The notes beneath the pieces were generated by a model. It did not search any database, had not been told where the DNA came from, and saw nothing but the letters and a program-made list of their open reading frames with translations. A stretch of DNA of 36,947 bases from a virus: IMG/VR virus record IMGVR_UViG_3300028747_000003, positions 1 to 36,947 of that record; one strand, written 5' to 3'. This document shows, piece by piece, positions 1,334-19,415 of this stretch (the stretch's first letter is position 1; the number at the start of each line of letters is the position of its first letter). A program made the position numbers and the translations under genes.

Positions 1334-2539
1334 TTATGCCGGGGTGAAGTCGGACGGATCGTTAGTGATACGCGCAGCCCATTCAGGACGAAGCGCACCG
1401 AAGGCGTACATGATGTCGAAACGGGTCAGGTTCATGTCATTGACGATGCTGGAACCTTCTGTCACACGCATCGAGACACCGTTGTACTGACGTCGCGAGG
1501 TTTTCCAGCCAGCCAATTCCGGCAGATCAACCGTCGCAAATGCGAAGGCTTCCGGGCGATACGCCAAGGACACGCCGTAGGACGAGCTTGCCGTCTGATC
1601 GATGGTAATGACCGCATTGTCTGCTGGTAGCGCCGTGACGTTCTGCTCAGAACCCGTGAGGGTCAGTGCCGGATAGATGCCGATGGAACCCGCGCCTCCA
1701 GCATAGTTGGCCGTGACGACGAACTGACGCAGATAGCCAAGATTCGCCTTGGTCTGCGGATGGACGGCGAACACACCGGCAAAGGTGATGATCGTACCGA
1801 CCGGAACCGCACCCGTGCCGGTATCTACCACAATGGACGATCCAGCCTGATTTGCACCGTTGACCAGATAACCCGCGCCAGCACCGTTTGTAAAGACTGG
1901 CATCACGGTCGAGCTGTTCCAGTCATAACCGGCGGCACGACCCATCACACCATCTTCGTACTGCGTATCAAGCTGCTTCTGCGAGTTGAACAAGCCAGCC
2001 AGAGCCGGAACCAGAGTGGTTTCGGACGTGGTGTTCATCAGCATCTTCATGGTAGACGGACCCGCGCCGTTGTCCATGATGAGCTTTCGACCAATGTTCG
2101 CCCATGCAAGCTGCGTCCACTGTGCCGCGCCACCGGGACCGGTCTGGTTTGGAATCGATTGCAACGCAAGATTCTGCACAGCGGCTTCAACCGTGACAGC
2201 CAAGTCCGCGACCTGCTGGCTCAGATAGCGAGCATCGAACTCTTCGATATCCAGCGCCAATTCGGAACTGGTGTATTGGACGGAGAAGTTCAACTGATCG
2301 ATCACCTTCACATTACGGATGATCGTTTCCAGTGGGGCAGGAGCCGCAACGCGGCCTGAGGTAATGACGGCATGCTGCGGAACAGCAACACGCAAGGTAT
2401 CGCCAATCGCTGGCGCACCTTCTTTGAACTCCGACGCATACGTGCGCGGGATAGTCTTGATGAAGGAGAGATTTTCGCTGAACCGCATCAATGCGCGGTC
2501 AGCGATCATGTCAGTGGTGAGTAGCTGGTTACTAGCCAT
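1334..2539 (-). CDS. Major capsid protein, P22 gp5-like
   Basis: A 401-residue protein (P22 gp5 is about 430) in the expected place after the scaffold gene. The N-terminus MASNQLLTTDMIADRALMRF with NLSFIKTI matches P22-type coat proteins, which adopt the HK97 fold with an extra inserted domain. The region IITFAGVFAVHPQT (around residues 253-266) resembles that Ig-like insertion domain, and ...SYGVSLAYRPEAFAFATVDL resembles the later part of the family. It assembles with the scaffold into a T=7-type procapsid in P22; the triangulation number here cannot be read from sequence. Confidence 0.9.
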   Translation of the reverse strand: MASNQLLTTDMIADRALMRFSENLSFIKTIPRTYASEFKEGAPAIGDTLRVAVPQHAVITSGRVAAPAPLETIIRNVKVIDQLNFSVQYTSSELALDIEEFDARYLSQQVADLAVTVEAAVQNLALQSIPNQTGPGGAAQWTQLAWANIGRKLIMDNGAGPSTMKMLMNTTSETTLVPALAGLFNSQKQLDTQYEDGVMGRAAGYDWNSSTVMPVFTNGAGAGYLVNGANQAGSSIVVDTGTGAVPVGTIITFAGVFAVHPQTKANLGYLRQFVVTANYAGGAGSIGIYPALTLTGSEQNVTALPADNAVITIDQTASSSYGVSLAYRPEAFAFATVDLPELAGWKTSRRQYNGVSMRVTEGSSIVNDMNLTRFDIMYAFGALRPEWAARITNDPSDFTPA

Positions 2540-2561
2540 TTTGAAGCCTCATAGGAAGGAT

Positions 2562-3455
2562 TTAGCGCCCTCCCTGCTTCTTCCAAGCTTTGATGCGGTC
2601 AGCCGTGGACATCCCTGGATCGTTGATGTCTACACTGGGCTTACCCGCACCTGAGATTGTCTTCACAGGCGGCGGCGCAGAAGTGGTTTTCTTGGCAGTC
2701 ACAGGCTTCGGCGTTTCCGCCGTTTCTTCACCCTCGAACCGTTCGGCCAACTTGGCGATTTCTCGAACCTGCTGTAAGCGCGGTAACGCATTGATGCGCT
2801 CGGCTTCTTTCATGTTCGTGGCTAGATGATGGGCAATCTCAAGATCGTGTTCGTCACCCATGAACAACTCGGTCAGCGGTTTGTAGGCCGGATCGGTATT
2901 CAGTTTTGACGACACAATGTCATCCCAAGCACCATCGCCAGCCTTTTCCTCAAAGGCATCGACATGCGACTTGAACGATTCTTGGGCTTCAGCCTGTTTC
3001 CTCTGCTCCGCTTCCTGTTTCGCTGCATGGTCTTTTCGCTCAAGAGCCTGTTCAACGCGATATGCGATGTACTTGTCCTGATCGAAGTCGAAGTCCTGTA
3101 ACGTTTTCTCGTGCGACGCGGCCTGCGGTTGTGGTGCAGACTCGTGCCTTACGGGTTCGCGCTTTTGGATTTCTTCCAGTACAGCAGCACGGGTGCGGGC
3201 TTCGGTGACTTGCCGTTCCCTTTCTAGCCTTTCCTTCATCCAGCGAGGCAGGCGTTTTTCGCCTTTCTGTGGAGAGTCCGCGTCTAGAGCGTCGCTTTCC
3301 CCTTCCGGGGGCTTTGCAGCTTCCGGTTTCGGCTCTGGCTTAGGCGTCTGTCGTGCCGTGATATTCGGCGTTTCAGCAGCCTTAGAGCTGGTATCGATTG
3401 ATTTCAGCTCAGGTTGAGCTACCGGTGCCGTTACACCGTTGGTTTCGTCGGTCAT
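2562..3455 (-). CDS. Scaffolding protein, P22 gp8-like
   Basis: 297 residues if it starts at MTDETNG, ten bases after an AAGG Shine-Dalgarno; an upstream in-frame ATG at 3485 lacks one. Highly charged and helical: a Pro/Lys/Glu-rich N-terminal third (QTPKPEPKPEAAKPPEG), long amphipathic coiled-coil stretches (about residues 75-165), and a basic C-terminus (STADRIKAWKKQGGR) like the helix-turn-helix that binds coat in P22. It lies directly upstream of the coat gene. It should direct procapsid assembly and leave before or during packaging. Confidence 0.8.
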   Translation of the reverse strand: MTDETNGVTAPVAQPELKSIDTSSKAAETPNITARQTPKPEPKPEAAKPPEGESDALDADSPQKGEKRLPRWMKERLERERQVTEARTRAAVLEEIQKREPVRHESAPQPQAASHEKTLQDFDFDQDKYIAYRVEQALERKDHAAKQEAEQRKQAEAQESFKSHVDAFEEKAGDGAWDDIVSSKLNTDPAYKPLTELFMGDEHDLEIAHHLATNMKEAERINALPRLQQVREIAKLAERFEGEETAETPKPVTAKKTTSAPPPVKTISGAGKPSVDINDPGMSTADRIKAWKKQGGR

Positions 3456-3505
3456 GATGTTTACCTTTTGTGCTGGCAATGTCAAGGCGTGCCAGCATCA
3501 CCCCA

Positions 3506-3814
3506 TTAAGCGATACAAGCCCAAAGAACTTTGCAAGCAATGTGAATTGCCTGATCAGTGTTAATTCCAATCTTCTTTTCACACTTTGCATGGTCAGTTA
3601 GTGCATGAACGACAATCTCAGCCGCGCCGAGCCACCAAACGCCCGTAATCAATGCCACAAAGCCGCCGTGGATGAAGGAATGCGCCAATAGGCAATGCCA
3701 CCACGGAACATAACCGGGGCCTGTTCTGCATTTCCCCATTGCCAAGAAATCACCTTGCAGCGGGTAATCGGCAATAAAATGGGCAGCTATTAGTAGGAAT
3801 AGCATGTAAGCCAT
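3506..3814 (-). CDS. DUF3307-like small membrane protein
   Basis: 102 residues with three or four likely membrane segments. Shows the DUF3307 pattern: FIADYPLQGDFLAMGK near residue 13, then HSFIHGGF, HALTDHAKCEKK and TDQAIHIACK, with conserved His and Asp spaced along the helices. It overlaps the portal stop by ATGA and precedes the scaffold gene, so it is co-translated with the capsid module. The function of DUF3307 is not established. A membrane protein in this place is unusual for the P22 order; it may be an inserted cargo gene. Confidence 0.75.
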   Translation of the reverse strand: MAYMLFLLIAAHFIADYPLQGDFLAMGKCRTGPGYVPWWHCLLAHSFIHGGFVALITGVWWLGAAEIVVHALTDHAKCEKKIGINTDQAIHIACKVLWACIA

Positions 3815-5976
3815 CAGAATCCACCTGTATACGTGTCAGGTGAAGATGGACCAATCGGACCTTCATGCGGCACAGCGAAGCCCACTGGCTGCTGTGGCAT
3901 GAGGGCTGCCCCGTTCTGGATCATCGTGGCGTGACCATCGGCCTCGGTGCCGGGAATCTTGGCGACGAGACTGGCGGTCTTGGCTTCTTCCAGCTGCACC
4001 TGCGTCTGTGTCTTGGCAGCGATGTCCTGCGCGCGCGCCGTCGCGAGCGTGGCTTGTGCCTGATGATGGGCAGCCTGCGCAATGACCTGCGGCGGCGGCG
4101 GTGCGGGCGGCGCGGGCGGCGGATCGTTCGGTCCTGGCGGGATAATGCCCTGCTTGACCAGCGCCGTACGAATCCACTCCACAGCATCGTCAATGCCTGG
4201 AACGTCCATCGACTTCATCATCAGGTATTGGCCGATAGCGCCAACAGGTCCCGGCGTCTGCGCCACGGTCTGCGCGAACTCCGCCAGTTCCATGCGAGCC
4301 GTCTCGTAAGACTTTCCGACCGTTACCGTCACATCGTACTTACCGCGTGAGAGGTCGTTTTCGACGTATTCCTTACCTGTGACCGGATCAGTGACCATCT
4401 TGTTGATCGTGACGTATTTCTCAGCCAGATCAGGCCCCAGAATGCGTATGGAGCGTTCGGCATCATAGTAATGCGGGATAGCGTCCACCAGAATCTCACC
4501 CAGCCGTTTGAGTGCTTTAACCTGATTGTCCACATAGACGAAGTTGACCACTTCCGCTTGAGCATTGCGCGCCATGATCGCGCGACCGCTGGTTTCATTT
4601 GACTGGCTTCCTACCGACGCGTCATACACACCGGTCGTAGCCTTCATCTCATCGACGGTGATATTGGACAGGTTCGCGAGGGCTGAAGGTAGCTGCGCCA
4701 TCGGTTCGCGTGAAGGACCGCCTGGTGCGTTAGGGTCAGCGTTGAACAGCAATACCGGCGGATCGTCATAGCCTAGTCGTTCGTAATAGCTTTCCAGACC
4801 TTTGATCATTGCCGGAGTAGCTTTAAGCGGGCTGTTCGGAAGCTTGGCGACCACCTCCACCATCGAAGACATTTCAAAGTTGTGAATGGTCTGCGAGTCA
4901 CGGGCAAAGCGCGTCATTCCTGAGTAAATCTGCTTGCCATCGATACTGATTAGATCACCCCATTGCGGAACAATCGGGATCATCGAACCACCCCATTTCG
5001 TCGGTTCTTCGAGCTTTCCATTGCCTGATACAGGGCACGAATAGATCACGTCCACATCGACTTCGCGAGTGGATTTGATCGTTACTGGTGGCGTGGCAGC
5101 CGGTGGAGGAATAGCTGTAGCGCCAGCTGGTGCCGTGGCTGGATCAACAGGAGGCATAGATTTAGCTGCATCAGCTTGCGCTTTCTGATAACCCTCATAG
5201 TCTTCTTCATCGACAATCGAGCCATCGGAAAGCAATAGGATCGTCTTGGGTTGCTTCTCTGCGTACCAGTACTCGGCAATGCGCACCATATCTTCGGTGC
5301 ACCACAATAGGTCGCTATCACTGTCAGTCCGGGCTACATCGAAGTCCACCACTTCCGCATTAGGCCAACGTGCTGTGAATGTTGCCTTTGGAATCAGTTC
5401 GGAAATGAACCAATATCGCGCGTCGGATCTGTCGAACTTTCGTGCAGATGGATCGCAAAACACGGTCATTGGATCAAGCACCGCTTCGATCTTCAGACAT
5501 TGGTCGAACGTATCAGGTGACTCATAGTCCGACTTGACGCGCAGAACGCCATAGCCGCCGCCACACGACCACTGGAAGGCAGTGTCATAGGCGTTGTCAG
5601 CCGACGAATCGACCTCGATATTTTTGATCATGCCGTTGAGGACTTCTGCCGTGTCAACGTCCTCGTCATTGGACGCGCGGCATTTAATCTCTGGCTTGTT
5701 CTTTAGCTGCTGCCCGGTCACTCGGCGAATCAACTGGCGAACCCGATTGAACTCGTAGTTCGGCTTGTTGCGGCGCTTGGCCGTGAGATGAGCGTCCCAT
5801 TGATGCCCAGCCACAAAGGCGAACTTCATGTCTTCGACGCACTGCCGACGTTGTTCGGTGTCGAACGTCATAGCATCAGAGGCGCGCTCAAGCATCTCTT
5901 TTGTCCACGAATCTTTCTCGACCACTTTCTGCTTGGTTTCACCACCCGTTGAACGGTAGGTCTTGGACTTAGCCAT
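3814..5976 (-). CDS. Portal protein, P22 gp1-like
   Basis: 720 residues, close to the 725 of P22 gp1, which forms the dodecameric ring for DNA entry, exit and headful sensing. Characteristic stretches are FVAGHQWDAHLTAKRRNKP, YEFNRVRQLIRRVTGQQ and NPAPG-type loops followed by SNETSGRAIMARNAQAE. The C-terminal part is Pro-rich (PPGPNDPPPAPPAPPPP) and then helical with many Gln, like the barrel domain of P22 portal. The start at 5976 has GGAG seven bases upstream and overlaps the terminase stop by eight bases (ATGGCTAA); an upstream in-frame start at 6009 is less likely. Confidence 0.92.
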   Translation of the reverse strand: MAKSKTYRSTGGETKQKVVEKDSWTKEMLERASDAMTFDTEQRRQCVEDMKFAFVAGHQWDAHLTAKRRNKPNYEFNRVRQLIRRVTGQQLKNKPEIKCRASNDEDVDTAEVLNGMIKNIEVDSSADNAYDTAFQWSCGGGYGVLRVKSDYESPDTFDQCLKIEAVLDPMTVFCDPSARKFDRSDARYWFISELIPKATFTARWPNAEVVDFDVARTDSDSDLLWCTEDMVRIAEYWYAEKQPKTILLLSDGSIVDEEDYEGYQKAQADAAKSMPPVDPATAPAGATAIPPPAATPPVTIKSTREVDVDVIYSCPVSGNGKLEEPTKWGGSMIPIVPQWGDLISIDGKQIYSGMTRFARDSQTIHNFEMSSMVEVVAKLPNSPLKATPAMIKGLESYYERLGYDDPPVLLFNADPNAPGGPSREPMAQLPSALANLSNITVDEMKATTGVYDASVGSQSNETSGRAIMARNAQAEVVNFVYVDNQVKALKRLGEILVDAIPHYYDAERSIRILGPDLAEKYVTINKMVTDPVTGKEYVENDLSRGKYDVTVTVGKSYETARMELAEFAQTVAQTPGPVGAIGQYLMMKSMDVPGIDDAVEWIRTALVKQGIIPPGPNDPPPAPPAPPPPQVIAQAAHHQAQATLATARAQDIAAKTQTQVQLEEAKTASLVAKIPGTEADGHATMIQNGAALMPQQPVGFAVPHEGPIGPSSPDTYTGGF

Positions 5977-8254
5977 GGAATAGCTCCGAGCGCTGGCCGA
6001 AGCCTTCACGGGTGAATTGGGTGGTAAAGGAGATGTTTGGCATAGCGCCGAGGTTTAGCGTGGCGTAGTCAACGGCAATTAGCCCAGCTGCATCAGCGGA
6101 GTGGCTTGACCAATCATGGTGGGGACCTAAGCCGATATTGCGGTTCTCATCGCGCTTTTCGTGATACCAGCCCAGCGCTGATCGTCCTGCTTCGGTTTTC
6201 TTCTCATCGAACCACATAGAAGGAAAAGCTCTACGCATAGCTTCGATGCGCCTGGAAGCGGCACCTGCACCCATATTGGGAATGACACGCACATCGAACT
6301 GAGCTTCCATCAACGCACTTTGATAGCTCACCTGAAATACCTTGTCGTGCTGTGCTCCATCGTGAGGAAGAACAAGCTCAGCCTTACCGTAACCGTGATC
6401 GCGTAGCCACTGGACATGCACGCTCAAAGGTTGACCAACAGTCTCATAGTGATCCAGCACGCGTATCTCTTTGCCAATGAACTGGACGATCCAGATAGCG
6501 CATGCGTCAGCTTTGGCACCCGTTCCACCAATGTCCCAATAGGCACGTAGTGTCATTAGAGGGTCGGCAGATAGATTGCCAATGCGGCCTTGTTCCTTGG
6601 CTTCGGCTAAGGCTTTGGCGTAATACGCACCCTCCACGGAGCGTTTATAGCCACCTTCCCATATGTGATCGTACTGATCTGGCCGCTCCTCAAGGTCGCG
6701 CAAGCGCTCACGTTCCAGTTTTGCGGGGAACTTGGGGTTATCGCGCCAATTAAGCTCGACCATCCGCACGAGAGAGTCAGTCGATAGCCGAAATCGCTTC
6801 TCGACGGCGTCAACTTCACGCTCGGGGTTCCATGTCACCCAAAGCTCAGCGTTCCAGTCCGTTCCTTCCTCACGCAACGTTGGTATCAGCGTAGACCACG
6901 CATCGTTCGTGACCGGGCTTGCCTCATCGACCCAGCAAATCAGAATGCGACCCTTTGATTTGATGCTGGCGATGTTCCGATCTAGACCGGAGAATGCGAA
7001 CGAGATGCGCCCATCCTTTGACTTGATGTACTTATCGCCTACATCGTAATAGTCAGCTAGCCATTGTTCGTCTTGAATCGCCCGCTTCACTTCCTCAAGG
7101 CTGGAATCCTCAAGGCTATTCATGAACAGGCGAGCGCAGACGATGATGCCGCTAACGCCAGACGATCCAAACATCATCCCGCGTACTGCTGCCATCTTGG
7201 CGAATGATCGTGTCTTGCCTGAGTTGTGGTTGACGATACCGTTTGACAGGTAGTTCTCAAGCACCGGCACATGTAAATCCCAATACACAAGGCGGTCGTG
7301 CTTGCAAATGCTTTGTATGCCAATCAAACTATGGCGGTCGTGAACACAACTGGGAGAAAACCATGAACTATCGTGAACGCCGAGCCGAGGCATGCCGGGA
7401 ATTGTTCGCTTCTTTCCATCCTGACTTTTCAGGTTGTCGTGATAAAGACCGAGCGAATGAAATTCTTGAGATGGCTCGCGAAGGAATGTTTTCTGCTGAT
7501 ATAGCGCAACGTCTCGGCATAACTCCAAAGGCTGTGCAGAAGCTTTACCGTCGCTATAACTTCCCTCAGCTACAGAACTTTTCGCCGCCGCTGCGAGAAG
7601 AACGCGTTGGCTGGACAGGTGGCGTGAAGGAAGTTCGCGGGTATCTGTATTCTCGTTCGCCAGGTCATCCGCGTGCGTCCAAGTATGGGAACTATGTTGC
7701 GGTTCACCGACTTGTGATGGAGAAGAAACTAGGACGATATCTGAAAGGATCGGAGGTTGTTGATCATATCGACGGGAATACGAGAAATAACCACCCGGAT
7801 AACCTTCGTGTTTTTCCGAATAATGCGGAGCATCTTCGCGTGACGCTGAAAGGCCGTGTTCCGAATTGGTCGCCGGAAGGCAAAGCTCGGATGGGGACGC
7901 CACGTAAACCGAATCAGCCATCGTCAAATCTTGAAGCTCAACCCAGCCTCGATTCGTCAGAAAGCGATGCTCGTCCGTTACAGACATTGACCGACCATCC
8001 AGAAGAGTCACCAAGTAAAGCTGTTGCTCGTCATATGGAATGGATGGAGTAGCTGGAGCTATAACGACTCGACCATCCAGCACCGAGTAAACGCTGCCTC
8101 CTTTGAACTCGCTTATCTTCACTTGACCTGAAGGCGTGTCGATAAGCGTATCGGGGTGGCAGCAGCCGCGCCCACCAAAAGCCCCACGGACGTCTGCTGC
8201 TCCCAAAAAGATAGGCCGTAGCTTTGGAGGAAGCTGGACAGTGACTTCGGTCAA
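5969..8254 (-). CDS. Terminase large subunit interrupted by an intein in Walker A
   Basis: 761 residues as translated, about 447 after splicing. It starts with TTG inside the small-terminase stop (CCTTGACC). Residues 1-30 and 345-761 form the packaging motor: the spliced product restores Walker A GGRG-SGKT, Walker B is ILICWVDEA (D443, E444), and the nuclease half contains YWDIGGTGAKADA, LPHDGAQHD and HHDWSSHSADA, the acidic-residue pattern of Terminase_3/6-type RNase H-like nucleases. It drives ATP-powered headful packaging at the portal. The unspliced protein should lack a working P-loop, so packaging depends on protein splicing. The intein and its antisense gene are annotated separately. 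Confidence 0.95.
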   Translation of the reverse strand: MTEVTVQLPPKLRPIFLGAADVRGAFGGRGCCHPDTLIDTPSGQVKISEFKGGSVYSVLDGRVVIAPATPSIPYDEQQLYLVTLLDGRSMSVTDEHRFLTNRGWVELQDLTMADSVYVASPSELCLPATNSEHGLSASREDAPHYSEKHEGYPGGYFSYSRRYDQQPPILSDIVLVSSPSQVGEPQHSSHTWTHADDLANENTDTRELPSRHLSSQRVLLAAAAKSSVAEGSYSDGKASAQPLELCRDVALYQQKTFLREPSQEFHSLGLYHDNLKSQDGKKRTIPGMPRLGVHDSSWFSPSCVHDRHSLIGIQSICKHDRLVYWDLHVPVLENYLSNGIVNHNSGKTRSFAKMAAVRGMMFGSSGVSGIIVCARLFMNSLEDSSLEEVKRAIQDEQWLADYYDVGDKYIKSKDGRISFAFSGLDRNIASIKSKGRILICWVDEASPVTNDAWSTLIPTLREEGTDWNAELWVTWNPEREVDAVEKRFRLSTDSLVRMVELNWRDNPKFPAKLERERLRDLEERPDQYDHIWEGGYKRSVEGAYYAKALAEAKEQGRIGNLSADPLMTLRAYWDIGGTGAKADACAIWIVQFIGKEIRVLDHYETVGQPLSVHVQWLRDHGYGKAELVLPHDGAQHDKVFQVSYQSALMEAQFDVRVIPNMGAGAASRRIEAMRRAFPSMWFDEKKTEAGRSALGWYHEKRDENRNIGLGPHHDWSSHSADAAGLIAVDYATLNLGAMPNISFTTQFTREGFGQRSELFHG
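7223..8164 (-). mobile_element. Terminase intein (314 residues) with no sense-strand endonuclease
   Basis: Residues 31-344 of the terminase precursor. Block A starts CCHPDTLIDTPSG, with Cys31 as first residue and D/T at positions 5-6. Block B is SVTDEHRFLT with the TxxH motif (T93, H96). The end is VYWDLHVPVLENYLSNGIV then NHN, with penultimate His343, terminal Asn344 and Ser345 as the +1 nucleophile. Removing 31-344 leaves a canonical Walker A, which fixes both junctions. The splicing parts are about residues 31-120 and 315-344. The intervening 190 or so residues show neither LAGLIDADG nor HNH motifs and are Ser/Gln/His-rich, because they are the antisense of an HNH gene. Confidence 0.95.
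7363..8052 (+). CDS. HTH-HNH homing endonuclease nested antisense in the terminase intein
   Basis: 229 residues. The ATG has GGGAG six bases upstream; an in-frame ATG at 7243 would add 40 residues without a good signal. Residues 33-66 form a helix-turn-helix (SADIAQRLGITPKAVQKLY). Residues about 92-158 form an HNH nuclease: YVAVHRLVMEKKLG (H115), EVVDHIDGNTRNNHPDNLRV (D134, H135, N139, H144), then NNAEHLRV. The tail is Ser/Pro-rich. It cuts DNA, and by family habit would cleave intein-free terminase alleles so that repair copies the intein in. The gene lies wholly within 7223-8164 on the strand opposite the intein; its strand is also opposite to all late genes, so it needs its own promoter, which I cannot place confidently. 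Confidence 0.9.
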   Translation: MNYRERRAEACRELFASFHPDFSGCRDKDRANEILEMAREGMFSADIAQRLGITPKAVQKLYRRYNFPQLQNFSPPLREERVGWTGGVKEVRGYLYSRSPGHPRASKYGNYVAVHRLVMEKKLGRYLKGSEVVDHIDGNTRNNHPDNLRVFPNNAEHLRVTLKGRVPNWSPEGKARMGTPRKPNQPSSNLEAQPSLDSSESDARPLQTLTDHPEESPSKAVARHMEWME

Positions 8255-8502
8255 GGCTTGTCCATGTCAACGAGCTTGATGGAGTGAACTATCTGGAAGG
8301 GATTATCTGGGTCTGTAGACATTTCAACGCTCGATAGGTCGGGAACTGATTTCCTTAACAAAATTTCAGCTGACTTAAGCTGTGTTGCGGTAAGATCACG
8401 CTTACCCTCGAAATGGTCATGCAGCCCACGGATTAACATACTCGCCTGTATCTTGGCGCGTATCTCATCACTGTGTTTTGGGCGTAGTGTCCGTGCAGCC
8501 AT
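8251..8502 (-). CDS. Terminase small subunit
   Basis: 83 residues directly upstream of the large terminase, overlapping its TTG start by four bases. The pattern AKIQASMLIRGLHDHFEG, LTATQLKSAEILLRKSVPDL then SSVE is the common signature of short small-terminase proteins, which recognise the packaging site and regulate the large subunit. It is shorter than P22 gp3 (162 residues) and lacks a visible N-terminal HTH. The upstream 74 bases (8503-8576) are AT-rich and may hold a late promoter, but no convincing -35/-10 pair is seen. Confidence 0.8.
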   Translation of the reverse strand: MAARTLRPKHSDEIRAKIQASMLIRGLHDHFEGKRDLTATQLKSAEILLRKSVPDLSSVEMSTDPDNPFQIVHSIKLVDMDKP

Positions 8503-11005: not shown

Positions 11006-11082
11006 TGGCAGCGCGGGCAGGATTTGAACCTGCAATACTCGACTTCAAAGGACGATGCCTTACCTGATTTGGCTACCGCGCT
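11006..11082 (-). tRNA. tRNA-Gln(TTG)
   Basis: Folds as a cloverleaf: acceptor AGCGCGG/CCGCGCU with discriminator G and encoded CCA, D-stem GCC/GGC, anticodon loop CUUUGAA (anticodon UUG), T-arm GCAGG-UUCAAAU-CCUGC. The anticodon stem (UCGUC/GUCGA) has one U-U mismatch. Reads CAA codons. Confidence 0.9.
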
Positions 11083-11164
11083 GTAGGTAACCTGAAACAT
11101 CTCACGACGTGACAGGCTCAGTGCAGGGCGTCTAGGGGGATAGACAGAAATCCCTACAGAATTT

Positions 11165-11252
11165 TGGCGGAAATGGAAGGATTCGAACCTTCGCGCCCTT
11201 TCGAACGTACCGGTTAGCAACCGATTGCCTTCATCCACTCGGCCACACTTCC
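11165..11252 (-). tRNA. tRNA-Ser(GCT)
   Basis: Class II tRNA with acceptor GGAAGUG/CAUUUCC, the Ser-type D-arm start GGCCGAGUGG, anticodon stem AUCGG/CCGGU and loop UUGCUAA (anticodon GCU), a long variable arm, T-arm GAAGG-UUCGAAU-CCUUC and encoded CCA. Reads AGC/AGU. Confidence 0.93.
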
Positions 11253-11258
11253 TAAAAA

Positions 11259-11345
11259 TGGCGGAAGGTTGAGGAGTCGAACCCCTACCGTTTCCAGTCC
11301 CTCCGGGTTCAAACCGGATTGCCAGCCAACCTAGCGGAACCTTCC
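11259..11345 (-). tRNA. tRNA-Ser(TGA)
   Basis: Acceptor GGAAGGU/ACCUUCC with encoded CCA, anticodon stem UCCGG/CCGGA, loop UUUGAAC (anticodon UGA), variable arm ACUG-GAAA-CGGU, T-loop UUCGACU. The outermost T-stem pair is A-A and the D-arm is atypical for Ser, so the amino-acid identity rests on the anticodon and the long variable arm. Confidence 0.85.
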
Positions 11346-12605: not shown

Positions 12606-13091
12606 TCAAAACGCCTCAATCGCTTTATTGACTATATCCACCAGCGTTTGGCCTTCGCGGCGGTACTTTTCTAGCTTGGCTACGTTGGTAGGCGTAAACC
12701 AGACACCGATAAATTTATCTCCCTTGGCGAGTCTAGATTGACGCGCTTTGGCTTGATATTGGTTTTCTTTGATGCGGATCATGGTTTCTCTAGCAGGAAC
12801 ATCTTTGCGAAATGGCGCAGCTGTCCCCGGTGGATAAACGTTAAAACCACTCGGGTACATTGAGTTCATCGCTAAAACCCACTTTTTCTCTAGTTCGTTT
12901 AGCTGGTAAGGGGAACATGTTTCCAATATCGCTTTTTCAAAACTTTTCCACCCAAATTCTTCTATCGCATCCGCTATTTTCCCACTACTTCCTCTTTTGT
13001 GGCCTAAAAACCTTTGCTCTATATCAATGCTTTGACCTACGTATGTTTTACCTGTCGCAACATGCTTTATGGAATAAATTCCGCAAGTCAT
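12606..13091 (-). CDS. GIY-YIG endonuclease
   Basis: 161 residues. The N-terminus is CGIYSIKHVATGKTYVGQS, the GIY...YVG core with catalytic Tyr, then DIEQRFLGHKRG carrying the conserved Arg, and EKAILETCSPYQLNELEKKW with the metal-binding Glu region. Family members are free-standing homing endonucleases or domains attached to DNA-binding parts. The C-terminal 70 residues (KDKFIGVWFTPTNVAKLEKY-like) look like a ribbon-helix-helix or similar DNA-binding region. Start overlaps the RHH-gene stop by ATGA. Confidence 0.88.
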   Translation of the reverse strand: MTCGIYSIKHVATGKTYVGQSIDIEQRFLGHKRGSSGKIADAIEEFGWKSFEKAILETCSPYQLNELEKKWVLAMNSMYPSGFNVYPPGTAAPFRKDVPARETMIRIKENQYQAKARQSRLAKGDKFIGVWFTPTNVAKLEKYRREGQTLVDIVNKAIEAF

Positions 13092-15907: not shown

Positions 15908-16110
15908 GCCAGTCCCCAAATAATCGACCTCTTGCGCGATCTCGGCCCCCAGCCCATCGGAGCTACCAGTAAATGACGCATGAGCCTTAAAAGTGACTTT
16001 CTGGCCGTCTCAAAGGCTATCGATAGGCAGCGCGACAGTTCATTGATTGACATGGGTCGAAGTCTTAAAGCTTTCAGGATGCGGATGCGGAGACGTTCAG
16101 GTCTTAGCAT
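15904..16110 (-). CDS. Small winged-helix DNA-binding protein
   Basis: 68 residues from MLRPERLRIRILKALR, with GGAAG seven bases upstream. LRPMSINELSRCLSIAFETA followed by KSLLRLMRHL is a helix-turn-helix with recognition helix, then an Arg-rich beta wing. Very basic. It resembles the wHTH protein at 15005-15217 in design; both may regulate the leftward genes. Confidence 0.65.
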   Translation of the reverse strand: MLRPERLRIRILKALRLRPMSINELSRCLSIAFETARKSLLRLMRHLLVAPMGWGPRSRKRSIIWGLA

Positions 16111-16487
16111 GGTGTTACTTCCTTCGATCTTGGAAAACGTGAATAGAAAGCACTGCGCTTCTTGTTCTCCTTTTTCTTGCAACCTTTCCTAACCTTTTCC
16201 ATGGAAATTTCCATAGTTGTTCCAGAAGCAAGCGAAGCAATCAAATCACGTAGAAGTTGATTGTTGGAAAAATACTCTCCCTTCTTTCGACAGAAAGAGA
16301 ACATTTCATGCAACTTGTGTTCGATCGCGTAAGCCTGACTTTCCGAGCCGATATGATGAGCATATAGAATCTTTAAGCGTGACGAACTTCCGGTCTGAAG
16401 CCCTTTCAAGCGAGCTTCTACATCATTGGCTTTACCGATCTTCACATTCCCGAACTGGTCACATTGCTGAATGAAATATATATGCAT
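16104..16487 (-). CDS. T5orf172/GIY-YIG-like nuclease
   Basis: 127 residues. MHIYFIQQCDQFGNVKIGKA, DVEARLKGLQTGSSSRLKIL, then a His/Glu-rich helix AYAIEHKLHEMFSF and KGEYF match the T5orf172 branch of the GIY-YIG superfamily (Y-x-x-x...VKIG, R, E-x-x-x-H). Family members cut or bind DNA; several are mobile. The C-terminal 35 residues are very basic (KGCKKKENKKRS). Strong signal GGGAGACAAG before ATG. First gene after the long non-coding gap, so it probably begins its own transcript. Confidence 0.8.
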   Translation of the reverse strand: MHIYFIQQCDQFGNVKIGKANDVEARLKGLQTGSSSRLKILYAHHIGSESQAYAIEHKLHEMFSFCRKKGEYFSNNQLLRDLIASLASGTTMEISMEKVRKGCKKKENKKRSAFYSRFPRSKEVTPC

Positions 16488-17165: not shown

Positions 17166-17354
17166 TCATTTCACCTCTGGCTCGGTTATGAGTAAAGGTA
17201 CGTACTGATCAATCCACGCGTTGATATCTCGCTTCAACTCATCACAAACCTTACTATCGTCAAGTGCCGCACTCATCCATGCGCCTAAATCAACGTCTTG
17301 CTGTGACCATGCGCGCGTGCTGTGTGGCAATCGTGGGAAATTGTCCATCATCAT
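17166..17354 (-). CDS. Small protein, unknown function
   Basis: 62 residues from MMMDNFPRLPHS; the ATG overlaps the preceding stop (GGATGATGATG), so the exact Met is uncertain. Contains DVDLGAWMSAALDDSKVCDE and a Trp-containing helix. No family recognised. Confidence 0.5.
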   Translation of the reverse strand: MMMDNFPRLPHSTRAWSQQDVDLGAWMSAALDDSKVCDELKRDINAWIDQYVPLLITEPEVK

Positions 17355-17503
17355 CCCCAGTAAACGAACTTTCGTCCACGCCACATGCGAACCTTCCTAC
17401 GGTCATATAGGCGTGGAATCATACGGCAATAAATTTCGCCAAGATTTCTGATGGATTCCGCAATTCCGTCTATAGTCACGGAATCGGTAGCTATGTAGTT
17501 CAT
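17351..17503 (-). CDS. Small basic protein, unknown function
   Basis: 50 residues from MNYIATDSVTIDGIAESIRN, start overlapping the preceding stop (CGATGA). C-terminus Arg/Trp-rich (RRKVRMWRGRKFVYWG). No family recognised. Confidence 0.55.
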   Translation of the reverse strand: MNYIATDSVTIDGIAESIRNLGEIYCRMIPRLYDRRKVRMWRGRKFVYWG

Positions 17504-17685
17504 CGCTTCACGTTTTCCTTGGTTATGGGCAACGGTGGCAAATGCATCCAATACATCATCTCGTCGTTAAAAACGTCATAGTTGTACCAGCCATCAACCC
17601 AGTGAACGACATCACAAATGTGGCCGTCTGTAGCAAGAATTTCTGTGCCATCTCGCGGCGCAGTTTCTATCGTTTGCCAGTCCAT
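17500..17685 (-). CDS. DUF551-domain protein
   Basis: 61 residues: MDWQTIETAPRDGTEILATD then VVHWVDGWYN and YWMHLPPLP. The WQTIETAPRDGTEIL start and W-x-x-LPPLP end are the DUF551 signature, common in phage and prophage early genes. Role unknown. Start overlaps the previous stop (TGATG). Confidence 0.8.
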   Translation of the reverse strand: MDWQTIETAPRDGTEILATDGHICDVVHWVDGWYNYDVFNDEMMYWMHLPPLPITKENVKR

Positions 17686-17837
17686 CAGTGCGAACTCCTC
17701 ACGACAGCCACTCTACCGCAGCATTCTTCAGCCAGTTCGCGAGCCTCAGAACGCTTGGCGCAGACGATGATGAGTTCGGCGGTGGTCGGATCGTAGACAA
17801 TCCAAGCGATGATTTGACCATCTTCATGTTTGTTCAT
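17685..17837 (-). CDS. Small protein, unknown function
   Basis: 50 residues (MNKHEDGQIIAWIVYDPTTA...). A very strong Shine-Dalgarno, GGAGGTAAGAA before ATG, and ATGA overlap with the Cro-like stop. A helix with KRSEARELAEECC follows a beta pair. No family recognised. Confidence 0.6.
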   Translation of the reverse strand: MNKHEDGQIIAWIVYDPTTAELIIVCAKRSEARELAEECCGRVAVVRSSH

Positions 17838-18025
17838 TTCTTACCTCCTGAGACGCGCTTGTGCAACTTTAGAAGCTCGACTCCAGCACCATAGAGAGGT
17901 TGCCTAGTCTTGCCTGTACTTAGGTCATGCACGCTGTTTTTCTTGAGGCCAGCATGATCGCCTATGTATTGAAGCGTATGCCTCTCGCGAAGCTTGTTGA
18001 CAATGTCTTGCCAGTTGTCCCGCAT
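17834..18025 (-). CDS. Cro-like helix-turn-helix regulator
   Basis: 63 residues. WQDIVNKLRERHTLQYIGDH followed by AGLKKNSVHDLSTGKTRQPL is an HTH with recognition helix KKNSVHDLST, and YGAGVELLKLHKRV forms the last helix, as in short Cro/C1-type proteins. First gene of the leftward unit, facing the rightward unit across 126 bp, the place for a regulator of both. AGAGGG lies eight bases before the ATG. No CI-type partner is seen, so a lysis-lysogeny switch is not established. Confidence 0.75.
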   Translation of the reverse strand: MRDNWQDIVNKLRERHTLQYIGDHAGLKKNSVHDLSTGKTRQPLYGAGVELLKLHKRVSGGKK

Positions 18026-18151
18026 GTTGCAACCCTCTGTTTGTTATGCGTGTACGATACGCCGAATTTATTTTTGCGCAAGGGTATTGCAAACCAGTTC
18101 GGCAGGGCGTACAGTTCACCCATCGGCCACCACCTGGCCATGGAGCGAACG
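18026..18151. promoter_or_regulatory. Divergent early control region
   Basis: 126 bp between the two diverging units. For the - strand, TTGCGC and TATCGT sit 16 bases apart (reverse complement of about 18051-18078). It contains the 15-bp dyad GCGTGTACGATACGC (18048-18062) over the presumed leftward -10, a further GCGTAC half-site at 18107, and GGCCA-CCACC-TGGCC (18125-18139) just before the rightward start. No clear rightward promoter is visible. Confidence 0.5.
18048..18062. promoter_or_regulatory. Imperfect dyad, candidate Cro operator
   Basis: GCGTGTACGATACGC has near-symmetric arms GCGT-x-T / A-x-ACGC around GTAC. It lies 23 bp upstream of the Cro-like gene, over its presumed -10, which would suit autoregulation. 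Confidence 0.4.
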
Positions 18152-18928
18152 ATGAACCAGATCGTAGAGATTCTTCCCGACCGCCTTGCTGCCGTGATGC
18201 AGCGCGAACTCAAGTCTGGCAGCCACGACAACTTCGAAGCCGGCCTATGCTTCATGGAAGGCGTCAGCTATGTCGCTGGCGAACCGTGGAGCGATACCCC
18301 GCAGTGCGCCTGCCCAGTCATCGCGACCTTCCTGCGTGGATGGAACGATGCACTGCCAGATGCTCGCCGCACTGAACTGCTCCGCGACCTGATTCCGCGT
18401 CTCGTCGGATCGAATTCCACACCAGAAGTGGAGCTGAAACGCTCACTGTTAGCCGCTGATTGGTTGGTGCGCACCCATACACCTGCATGGCTTCGTCTTG
18501 CTGGACTGACCGCACAAGCTGATGCGTTGGCTGGACTGCCGGAAATTACCGCGATGGCGCAGATACCGGGCATCAAGCCTGCGATAGAGGCGGTGCGCCG
18601 AGATGCATCCGCTGCTCGGGCCGCTGCTGGGGACGCTGCTTGGGACGCTGCTGGGGACGCTGCTTGGGCCGCTGCTCGGGCCGCTGCTTGGGACGCTGCT
18701 TGGGCCGCTGCTCGGGCCGCTGCTTGGGCCGCTGCTTGGGCCGCTGCTTGGGACGCTGCTTGGGCCGCTGCTGGGGCCGCTGCTCGGGCCGCTGCTTGGG
18801 CCGCTGCTGGGGACGCTGCTGGGGACGCTGCTGGGGACGCTGCCAAGAAAAAACTCGCGCCCACCGTCGATGAACTCCAAACGTCCGCCCTCGCGTTGGT
18901 CGCGAAAATGCTGGACGTGCAGGCATGA
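18152..18928 (+). CDS. Protein with a long Ala-rich (AA[W/R/G][A/D])n repeat domain
   Basis: 258 residues from MNQIVEILPDRLAAVM, with GGAG seven bases upstream; longer in-frame starts lie in the control region. Residues 1-150 are a globular helical part (NFEAGLCFMEGVSYVAG, LLAADWLVRTHTPAWLRLAG). Residues about 154-229 are nineteen four-residue repeats, Ala-Ala-(Trp/Arg/Gly)-(Ala/Asp), which would make a long helix or helical stack with Trp and Arg along one face. The last 29 residues end VDELQTSALALVAKMLDVQ. First gene of the rightward unit. Function unknown; similar Ala/Trp/Arg repeat tracts occur in other phage and bacterial proteins. Confidence 0.8.
   Translation: MNQIVEILPDRLAAVMQRELKSGSHDNFEAGLCFMEGVSYVAGEPWSDTPQCACPVIATFLRGWNDALPDARRTELLRDLIPRLVGSNSTPEVELKRSLLAADWLVRTHTPAWLRLAGLTAQADALAGLPEITAMAQIPGIKPAIEAVRRDASAARAAAGDAAWDAAGDAAWAAARAAAWDAAWAAARAAAWAAAWAAAWDAAWAAAGAAARAAAWAAAGDAAGDAAGDAAKKKLAPTVDELQTSALALVAKMLDVQA
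18611..18838 (+). repeat. 19 tandem copies of a 12-bp coding repeat
   Basis: Unit GCTGCTNGGGMC without any indel across 228 bp. Only two positions vary: N is T, C or G (Trp, Arg, Gly codons) and M is C or A (Ala or Asp codons). All six frames are open through the array, which explains long spurious frames around it. Confidence 0.98.
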
Positions 18929-19071
18929 CCACCAACCGCACCTTCCGCTGCCGCATCGCCCGAATGAACGACGGCGCGATCCAGACGATGAGCTACATCG
19001 GACCGATGGATGGCGTGCCGGTTGGCTGGTCGATCGTGATGCGCCGCGTGGCGATGAAGGTGGCGGCATGA
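18925..19071 (+). CDS. Small basic protein, unknown function
   Basis: 48 residues (MTTNRTFRCRIARMNDGAIQ..., then GPMDGVPVGWSIVMRR). The ATG overlaps the repeat-protein stop (GCATGA) and its stop overlaps the next start. No family recognised. Confidence 0.6.
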   Translation: MTTNRTFRCRIARMNDGAIQTMSYIGPMDGVPVGWSIVMRRVAMKVAA

Positions 19072-19415
19072 GCGCGCATACTTCTGAACCTTGGACAATC
19101 ATAACTGATCCAGCTATGAAGCATGGCGATTGGTTTGACAACGGCGGCTACCGAATCGATGCAAAAGATGTTGAGCAACTTTGCTATGTGTGGAATGCAA
19201 GTAATAGATTGCTGCATGATCATGCTCAAGAAGATGGACCGCGATTTGGAAGTGATGAAGGCGAAGCAAACGCATGCCTAATCGCAGCCGCGCCAGATTT
19301 GCTTGAAGCTTGCAATCTTTTGCTTAATTGCATGTATTTAGCTGGATGGGATGATGATTTCGCAGCAAAGAAAGCACGCGAAGCCATCGCCCGCGCTACC
19401 GGAAAAAAATCATGA
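19068..19415 (+). CDS. Conserved phage protein (NACLIAAAPDLLEA type)
   Basis: 115 residues from MSAHTSEPWTIITD. EGEANACLIAAAPDLLEACN is a widespread motif of phage early proteins without known function, here with EPWTI at the N-terminus and a C-terminal helix KKAREAIARATGKKS, both usual for the family. Coupled by ATGA on both sides. Confidence 0.75.
   Translation: MSAHTSEPWTIITDPAMKHGDWFDNGGYRIDAKDVEQLCYVWNASNRLLHDHAQEDGPRFGSDEGEANACLIAAAPDLLEACNLLLNCMYLAGWDDDFAAKKAREAIARATGKKS

Follow-up and report, generated by a model that had tools for sequence, protein, structure and literature searches.

A terminase intein with an antisense HNH gene overprinted on its linker: a candidate two-strand homing element

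The stretch of DNA analysed here, which we call the window, is a 36,947-base virus record (IMGVR_UViG_3300028747_000003); in it a terminase large subunit gene is interrupted by an intein, and the central part of that intein encodes, on the opposite strand, a helix-turn-helix (HTH) HNH protein. The features of the locus are collected in Table 1. In precursor numbering the intein begins at C31 and ends at N344, with S345 next. Positions 7223-8164 alone scored 41.0 bits against Intein_splicing, over the Pfam cutoff of 35.8, which the whole open reading frame (ORF) also exceeded. C1, H66 and N314 were invariant across 31 intein sequences, 29 of which matched Intein_splicing at E up to 0.01, and the element has what is expected of an intein, namely a Hint domain with Cys1, the block B His, a terminal His-Asn and a Ser, Thr or Cys at +1. 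Pfam gave no LAGLIDADG or HNH family match in the sense frame of the window intein, and no endonuclease family was found in the sense frame of the 31, so that these are not bifunctional inteins carrying a homing endonuclease (HEN) domain. The initial annotation, made from the letters alone, had described a complete terminase intein without a sense-frame endonuclease, and both the description and its coordinates proved correct.

Table 1. Features of the interrupted terminase gene and of the antisense gene within it (positions in the window).
Feature	Position	Strand	Basis
Terminase large subunit precursor ORF, intein inside	5969-8254	-	761 amino acids; Terminase_3 60.3 bits, phrog_3717 8.5e-51, Intein_splicing 37.7 bits
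N-extein, 30 amino acids, ending G-G-R-G of the Walker A loop	8165-8254	-	sequence; joined directly to the C-extein in empty alleles L087-L090
Intein, 314 amino acids, Cys1 to His-Asn314, +1 Ser	7223-8164	-	sequence, Pfam, empty alleles
Hint N part, residues 1-90, blocks A and B	7895-8164	-	block pLDDT 94-98; substitutions mostly at intein wobble positions
Sense linker, about residues 91-274, stop-free, antisense of HNH core, predicted disordered	7343-7894	-	block pLDDT about 35-59; substitutions mostly at intein second positions
Hint C part, blocks F and G, V-N-H-N end	7223-7342	-	pLDDT 94-97 for residues 281-314; substitutions at intein wobble positions
C-extein, S-G-K-T start, including stop	5969-7222	-	86.4% DNA identity to intein-free L088
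Antisense HTH-HNH_3 endonuclease gene (predicted), 229 codons and stop	7363-8052	+	HNH_3 1.6e-12; phrog_10730 7.3e-25
HNH core, codons 1-177, purifying selection as HNH protein	7363-7893	+	substitution positions against L005 and L006
HNH C-terminal tail overprinted on Hint N part	7894-8049	+	intein-wobble substitutions; model mostly disordered
Shine-Dalgarno-like GGGAG, 7-11 bases 5' of the ATG at 7363	7352-7356	+	sequence

Both products were modelled with AlphaFold from shallow alignments (31 rows for the intein and 25 for the HNH protein). The predicted local distance difference test score (pLDDT) of the intein model was approximately 94-98 for residues 1-90 and 281-314 and 35-59 between them; the predicted structure is thus a Hint fold interrupted by some 185 residues of disordered linker, and its confident part resembles the DnaB mini-inteins (1mi8; template-modelling score 0.85 by target length). 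The HNH model, made up of HTH-like helices and an HNH fold, is fairly confident to about residue 178, with a weak stretch at about 71-90 and a mostly disordered tail. An HNH_3 match was found in 25 of the 25 family members scanned, with the core residues invariant, and HTH models match the window protein weakly, below the Pfam cutoffs. With the HTH part taken from the model, the gene therefore has the make-up of an HNH_3 homing endonuclease, that is, an HNH motif and a DNA-binding module in a gene of its own.

The host gene is found intact without the insert. A search with the C-extein listed the best 80 viral terminases, of which 79 had the Walker A region covered (L145 was cut there and left out); among these matches the intein was present in 4 and absent in 75. 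Three of the carriers, L084-L086, are contigs already in the HNH scan, and the fourth, L091, is the contig of L006. L087-L090, the closest empty alleles among the matches listed, have 94% amino-acid identity in the C-extein, and their DNA joins both window flanks at GGRG/SGKT with nothing in between, an exact in-frame junction. In C-extein DNA the window is closer to the empty allele of L088 (Table 1) than to L005 (75.0%) or L006 (74.6%), whereas the elements of L005 and L006 are 84.2% and 83.1% identical to that of the window. Carrier status is therefore out of step with terminase kinship, which is the distribution of a mobile element, although transfer is not proven by these identities alone, as double coding could slow the divergence of the element.

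Relatives were collected from both the HNH side and the intein side. The records classified came from the HNH-based scans, the terminase scan and two phage records, and profile hidden Markov models were built from the first inteins; each scan gave its best 80 loci at most, so the counts are not censuses. In 201 of the 263 classified HNH records, the window included, Hint N and C blocks lie in one ORF antisense to the HNH. The 201 records form 131 clusters at 99% intein identity and 110 at 90%, many loci being one contig fetched twice, and eight loci with a single Hint half (L240, L277, L039, L248, L255, L061, L062 and L064) were kept out of them. The HNH lacked surrounding Hint blocks in 54 records. 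Scans that started from the intein (alignments A3 and A4) retrieved 118 loci; in 109 of them the antisense HNH is intact, the phase is the same and there are 0 stops, and the other nine comprise L449 with a partial HNH, L370, L373, L374 and L375 without this HNH, and four without an N and C pair, which stay in the 118. This sample is not fully independent of the first, because the A3 and A4 queries include the linker and the contigs overlap those of the HNH scans. Plasmids gave no match at E 1e-8 to the HNH of L037, the one query used there (the window HNH was not).

The viral genomes thus yielded both the other antisense-HNH inteins and the intein-free terminase alleles that the initial annotation had proposed to look for. 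It had also named homologues that keep the intein intact but have a broken + strand frame, or in which HNH-like sequence is read in sense, as telling against its proposal. None of the 263 records has Hint N and C in different ORFs around the HNH, and a split intein or fractured gene was rejected on this count; neither in these records nor, by the same HNH profile, in the 118 intein-first loci does an HNH of the family lie in sense between Hint blocks. A few relatives lack the HNH (L370) or have lost part of it (L449), a loss that the homing cycle allows.

Among the 110 clusters the insertion point lies before the S/T/C-x-K of the P-loop in 96 and after G-K in 12, with variants in 2, so that by the pattern used the P-loop is the site in 108. 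The first 420 amino acids of the C-extein match the terminase large subunit family phrog_2 alone in 62 of the 110, and most of the other frequent matches are to further families of this subunit (no combined total was taken). Hosts of other kinds are a primase-helicase-like protein with CHC2 and Toprim matches (L040) and a TraG/TraD-like ATPase (L021). Cys1 is kept in 108 clusters, the remaining two ORFs running off their contigs; the final His-Asn is kept in 105, and a Ser, Thr or Cys stands at +1 in all 110. This conservation, together with purifying selection on the Hint flanks, speaks against the idea that the element no longer splices and consists of Hint relics around a nuclease gene that splits the terminase, as might be suggested by L277, which keeps the HNH without most of the Hint N part. 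The frame also stays open through the HNH despite a cost in synonymous codons and dipeptides (see below), which would be hard to explain if the full precursor were not produced, and we regard loss of splicing as very improbable.

We next consider selection on the two reading frames. The phase of the overlap is fixed, HNH codon positions 1, 2 and 3 lying opposite intein positions 1, 3 and 2 in all 201 records and in all 109 intein-first loci. When the window was compared with L005, substitutions in the HNH core fell at HNH positions 1/2/3 in the numbers 14/6/76, and in comparison with L006 these were 20/7/77. Against L005 the tail gave 3/13/1 and the flanks 1/8/1 and 4/18/4, in each case the intein wobble position, and the constraint switches at about 7343-7402 and 7883-7942. 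The same was seen in 34 pairs that share no locus but are otherwise not phylogenetically independent (ties counting as highest): the core had 512/367/1306 substitutions at HNH positions 1/2/3, with position 3 highest in 34 of 34, while at intein positions 1/2/3 the Hint N part had 227/205/622 (position 3 highest in 30 of 34) and the Hint C part 136/83/328 (34 of 34). Domain edges, constraint switches and the limit of HNH homology roughly coincide. Substitutions peak at HNH wobble within the core, whereas most flanks peak at intein wobble, from which we conclude that both frames are under selection: the core is conserved as an HNH protein and the Hint blocks as an intein, while the sense linker stays open but is otherwise largely free. 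Of the intact 229-residue HTH-HNH protein that had been described, the + strand ORF, start, Shine-Dalgarno sequence and HNH_3 match are borne out, whereas the last 50 or so residues are not conserved as HNH protein; judged by substitutions, the selected protein is approximately residues 1-177.

Stop codons give a further view of the overlap. Synonymous codons were shuffled within each gene with the HNH amino acids fixed, using HNH domain matches rather than whole ORFs. For the window HNH core the intein frame was stop-free in 0.06% of 5000 shuffles, and across the HNH domains of the 110 representatives it contained 0 stops against 716.8 expected (standard deviation 14.4; minimum of 100 shuffles, 681). 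Stops abound in the two remaining antisense phases of these 110 genes, with means of 9.9 and 7.9. The 54 free-standing relatives were reduced to 49 by dropping identical HNH DNA; 46 of the 49 have stops in the same phase, with 347 observed against 386.9 expected (48 shuffled, one more being left out). In the overlap phase a stop arises whenever a Phe codon precedes one that begins with A, so F[IMTNK] is forbidden. It was never observed in the antisense HNHs, against 81.6 expected, while the reversed order was normal (77 against 82.0); free-standing relatives had 42 against 46.7 expected.

The start of the HNH gene was examined across the family. Of the 110 cluster representatives, 58 have a Shine-Dalgarno-like match of at least 5 nt at a start within the expected zone, compared with 5 of 109 internal-start controls. 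Within that zone the best start is a median of 128 nt inside the intein C-end, just beyond the C-block, and in all 110 the stop-to-stop HNH ORFs extend to 140 nt or less from the intein C-end. GC-rich genes can contain long antisense ORFs by chance, and with no + strand promoter found at 6900-8300 the + strand ORF might be a fortuitous antisense frame of an intein-encoded region of which only the - strand is expressed. That explanation has to contend with this enrichment at the starts, with HNH_3 and invariant core residues in 25 of 25 members, and with core substitutions peaking at HNH wobble, i.e. at intein second positions, in 34 of 34 pairs; its probability is negligible, and it was rejected on the codon-position data and the stop and dipeptide statistics. 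One DNA stretch thus appears to serve two proteins at once.

The histories of the intein and the HNH gene were also compared. Over 104 clusters the Hint and HNH distances correlate (Spearman 0.62; 0 of 500 permutations as high; partial correlation 0.51 given terminase distance), the Hint N stretch partly overlapping the HNH tail DNA in some clusters, and we take this to mean that Hint and HNH travel largely as a unit. On the HNH tree the antisense label is strongly clustered, with 10 changes against 42 in shuffles. We weighed these data against the proposal that the HNH is selected but is not the homing nuclease of the intein, being instead a free-standing selfish HNH or one with a phage function (for example exclusion of competitors or help with cos cleavage) for which the intein loop is a safe harbour. 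Such enzymes exist, in that some phage HNH proteins act with terminase (HK97; PMC10448857); 54 of the 263 classified HNH records have no Hint blocks, and in L165 a related HNH lies antisense in a DNA methylase ORF with no intein. A mere harbour would, however, leave unexplained the correlated distances, the near-constant choice of the P-loop, and presence or absence that varies among close terminases. We consider this proposal unlikely, though it is the strongest of the competing explanations.

We therefore favour a homing intein whose nuclease would be a separate antisense gene overprinted on the linker, inserted in the P-loop codons of terminases and of a few other ATPases, and we give this a probability of about 0.84. 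The opposite-strand nuclease gene inside the intein that the initial annotation had put forward is upheld by 110 clusters in one phase, stop avoidance, the constraint switch, empty alleles and the predicted folds. By comparative analysis we have shown both frames to be intact and selected, the insertion to be exact with empty alleles, and the Hint and HNH histories to be correlated, and the models predict Hint and HTH-HNH folds; splicing, DNA cleavage, its target site and + strand expression are what we infer from these. In outline, the - strand would encode the terminase with a protein-splicing Hint domain in which the usual endonuclease loop is replaced by a disordered, stop-free linker, and the + strand of the linker DNA a separately translated HTH-HNH nuclease. 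The latter would recognise and cut or nick the intein-less Walker A (P-loop) coding sequence in the terminase gene of a co-infecting phage, recombination or repair would copy the 942-bp element into the cut allele, and the new terminase precursor would splice itself. An antisense DNA-cutting enzyme thus probably spreads a self-splicing insert; with the nuclease a separate gene, the timing and amount of its expression could differ from those of the terminase.

Several observations weigh against this reading. The best match of the HNH model in the PDB is I-HmuI, an HNH homing endonuclease, at a weak E of 0.22, so it is Pfam and PHROGs that place the protein in its family. Of the HNH relatives, 22 come from contigs of bacterial and archaeal genomes, and all 22 are without Hint blocks. 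A Shine-Dalgarno-like match of at least 4 nt is absent from the candidate start in 20 of the 110 relatives, and no sigma-70-like + strand promoter site was found at 6900-8300 of the window; the earlier suggestion that the nuclease is made before the late genes are on accordingly finds no support. The antisense HNHs do not form one clade on the HNH tree, where starred branches force at least 3 changes, so some exchange or repeated gain is likely. Finally, 3 of the 49 free-standing relatives (L022, L029 and L165) have no stops in the phase of the overlap, and L165 makes plain that a stop-free opposite frame is by itself no proof of partnership with an intein, which slightly lowers our confidence.

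A broader reading, to which we give somewhat less than even odds, is that these are widespread two-strand mobile elements in which splicing protein and homing nuclease come from separate overprinted genes in one antisense phase, each constraining the other. They would have had at least two origins (the main Walker A family, and L061 at Walker B with another HNH domain order), would express the nuclease independently of, and before, the parasitised late gene, and would spread through recognition of the P-loop codons of unrelated ATPases; insertion of HNH genes in antisense without loss of the host frame may be a still wider strategy (L165).

Some variants and relatives deserve description in their own right. 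In L061 an intein at 4954-5859 (-), with an antisense HNH at 5061-5672 (+), occupies a Walker B-like site of another terminase, and L062 and L064 give the same match. From our reading of the sequence, the nuclease part of the L061 HNH precedes the HTH-like part; the tree, which is poorly resolved, places this HNH nearest to a free-standing one, and the intein frame across it has 0 stops against 7.9 expected. A decayed HNH in L061-L064 was rejected, as the HNH ORF is intact. With moderate confidence we see the L061 Walker B intein as a second, likely independent origin. The L165 HNH, at 3055-3450 (+) of a Nitrospira contig from a metagenome-assembled genome, is antisense inside a 989-amino-acid DNA methylase ORF at 1523-4489 (-); this ORF matches N6_N4_Mtase at 53 bits, and Hint blocks were looked for in it and none found. 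L022 (4977-5519, +) and L029 (4962-5477, +) have antisense ORFs of 184-263 amino acids without Hint blocks, and these stop-free frames may be accidental at high GC or may be left over from a former intein.

Among records with incomplete or altered elements, L277 (1-2241, -) has most of the Hint N part gone with the antisense HNH kept, by splicing decay or by deletion. The L449 element (1699-2331, +) is shortened to 633 nt, linker and antisense HNH being partly missing, and is possibly a decay stage. An intein at the same G-K site is found in L370 (2091-2876, +), with no HNH by this profile on either strand and antisense frames that hold stops, and in L264 (1593-4883, -) the terminase has a second Hint match (Hint_2, residues 506-548) in addition to the Walker A intein.

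Nine GenBank phage records match the family HNH over at least 80% of the query, from seven Pectobacterium phages, Dickeya phage Setonix and Pseudoalteromonas phage PHS3. Antisense Hint blocks were confirmed in six (Ymer, PHS3, Sabo, Taid, Setonix and Amona), while Abuela, Pappous and Koroua are probable carriers by their HNH match, Abuela also by an intein match. The phage HNH relatives PSTNGR2lys, ctXG6705 and BILI have no Hint blocks. Annotation hides these inteins: in PHS3, where terminase and HNH lie at 17336-19314 of KX912252, the HNH and a shortened terminase are listed as separate genes, the precursor is a 'hypothetical protein' in the Ymer, Sabo, Taid and Amona records, and we found no annotation describing an antisense-HNH intein among the matching phage records. 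The main text of the Ymer paper (PMC11445585) does not contain 'intein', 'HNH', 'homing' or 'endonuclease'. Since cultured phages carry the element, splicing, homing and antisense expression are directly testable.

Elsewhere in the window we noted a GIY-YIG homing-endonuclease-like gene at 12606-13091 (-; Pfam 5.1e-10), a T5orf172/MUG113-like gene at 16104-16487 (-) and three tRNA genes (Gln-ttg, Ser-gct and Ser-tga) at 11006-11345 (-). At 17927-18928 (+) lies a protein with a long Ala/Trp-rich region of short repeats (AAWAAAWDAAWAAA...), and several overlapping frames there hold long ORFs.

Inteins are already known from P-loop sites of phage terminases (PMC5050341). A literature search, which was without most subscription journals and preprints, found no antisense endonuclease gene in an intein. 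HEN-bearing inteins such as those of mycobacteriophage TerL (PMC5050341) and VMA (PMC8966425) likewise have a Hint domain with nuclease sequence nested between the N and C blocks, and in TerL likewise occupy P-loop or Walker B sites; they differ in carrying the nuclease as a domain of the intein's own polypeptide, whereas here it would be a separate opposite-strand protein and the sense loop is a poorly conserved linker. Antisense homing endonuclease genes are known in group I introns (Didymium squamulosum L2066; PMC9548176), where the nested nuclease gene is also on the strand opposite the host gene; splicing there is of RNA, and the nuclease gene presumably need not keep an opposite protein frame open. 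A group I intron was rejected for the window, with no Rfam match at 6900-8500 at E up to 1 and the precursor frame open throughout.

Within our own survey the sense HNH intein of L374 (2003-4627, +), a phage terminase intein of conventional architecture, shares Hint and HNH_3 with the present element but has the HNH_3 in sense, in the same polypeptide and at another terminase site. Free-standing phage HNH homing endonucleases (phrog_10730 and others) share HTH and HNH_3 and their own start and Shine-Dalgarno sequence, but 46 of the 49 distinct relatives examined keep no open antisense frame in the same phase. In the fractured genes that Dassa and colleagues reportedly described in 2009, a free-standing endonuclease lies between the halves of a split intein. 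Such a nuclease is likewise separately encoded within an intein; here, however, the intein is encoded without a break, splicing would be in cis, and the nuclease gene is antisense.

Intein homing nucleases are thought of as domains that are made and released with the spliced protein. The element described here is, by the logic of its proposed cycle, a homing intein, but one without the defining feature of a nuclease that is part of the intein polypeptide, and splicing and nuclease expression appear to be genetically uncoupled in one compact insert. It is also an unusually clean and replicated case of selected antisense overlapping genes, seen in 110 clusters, with a constraint that switches strand at the domain edges and dipeptides that the nuclease never uses.

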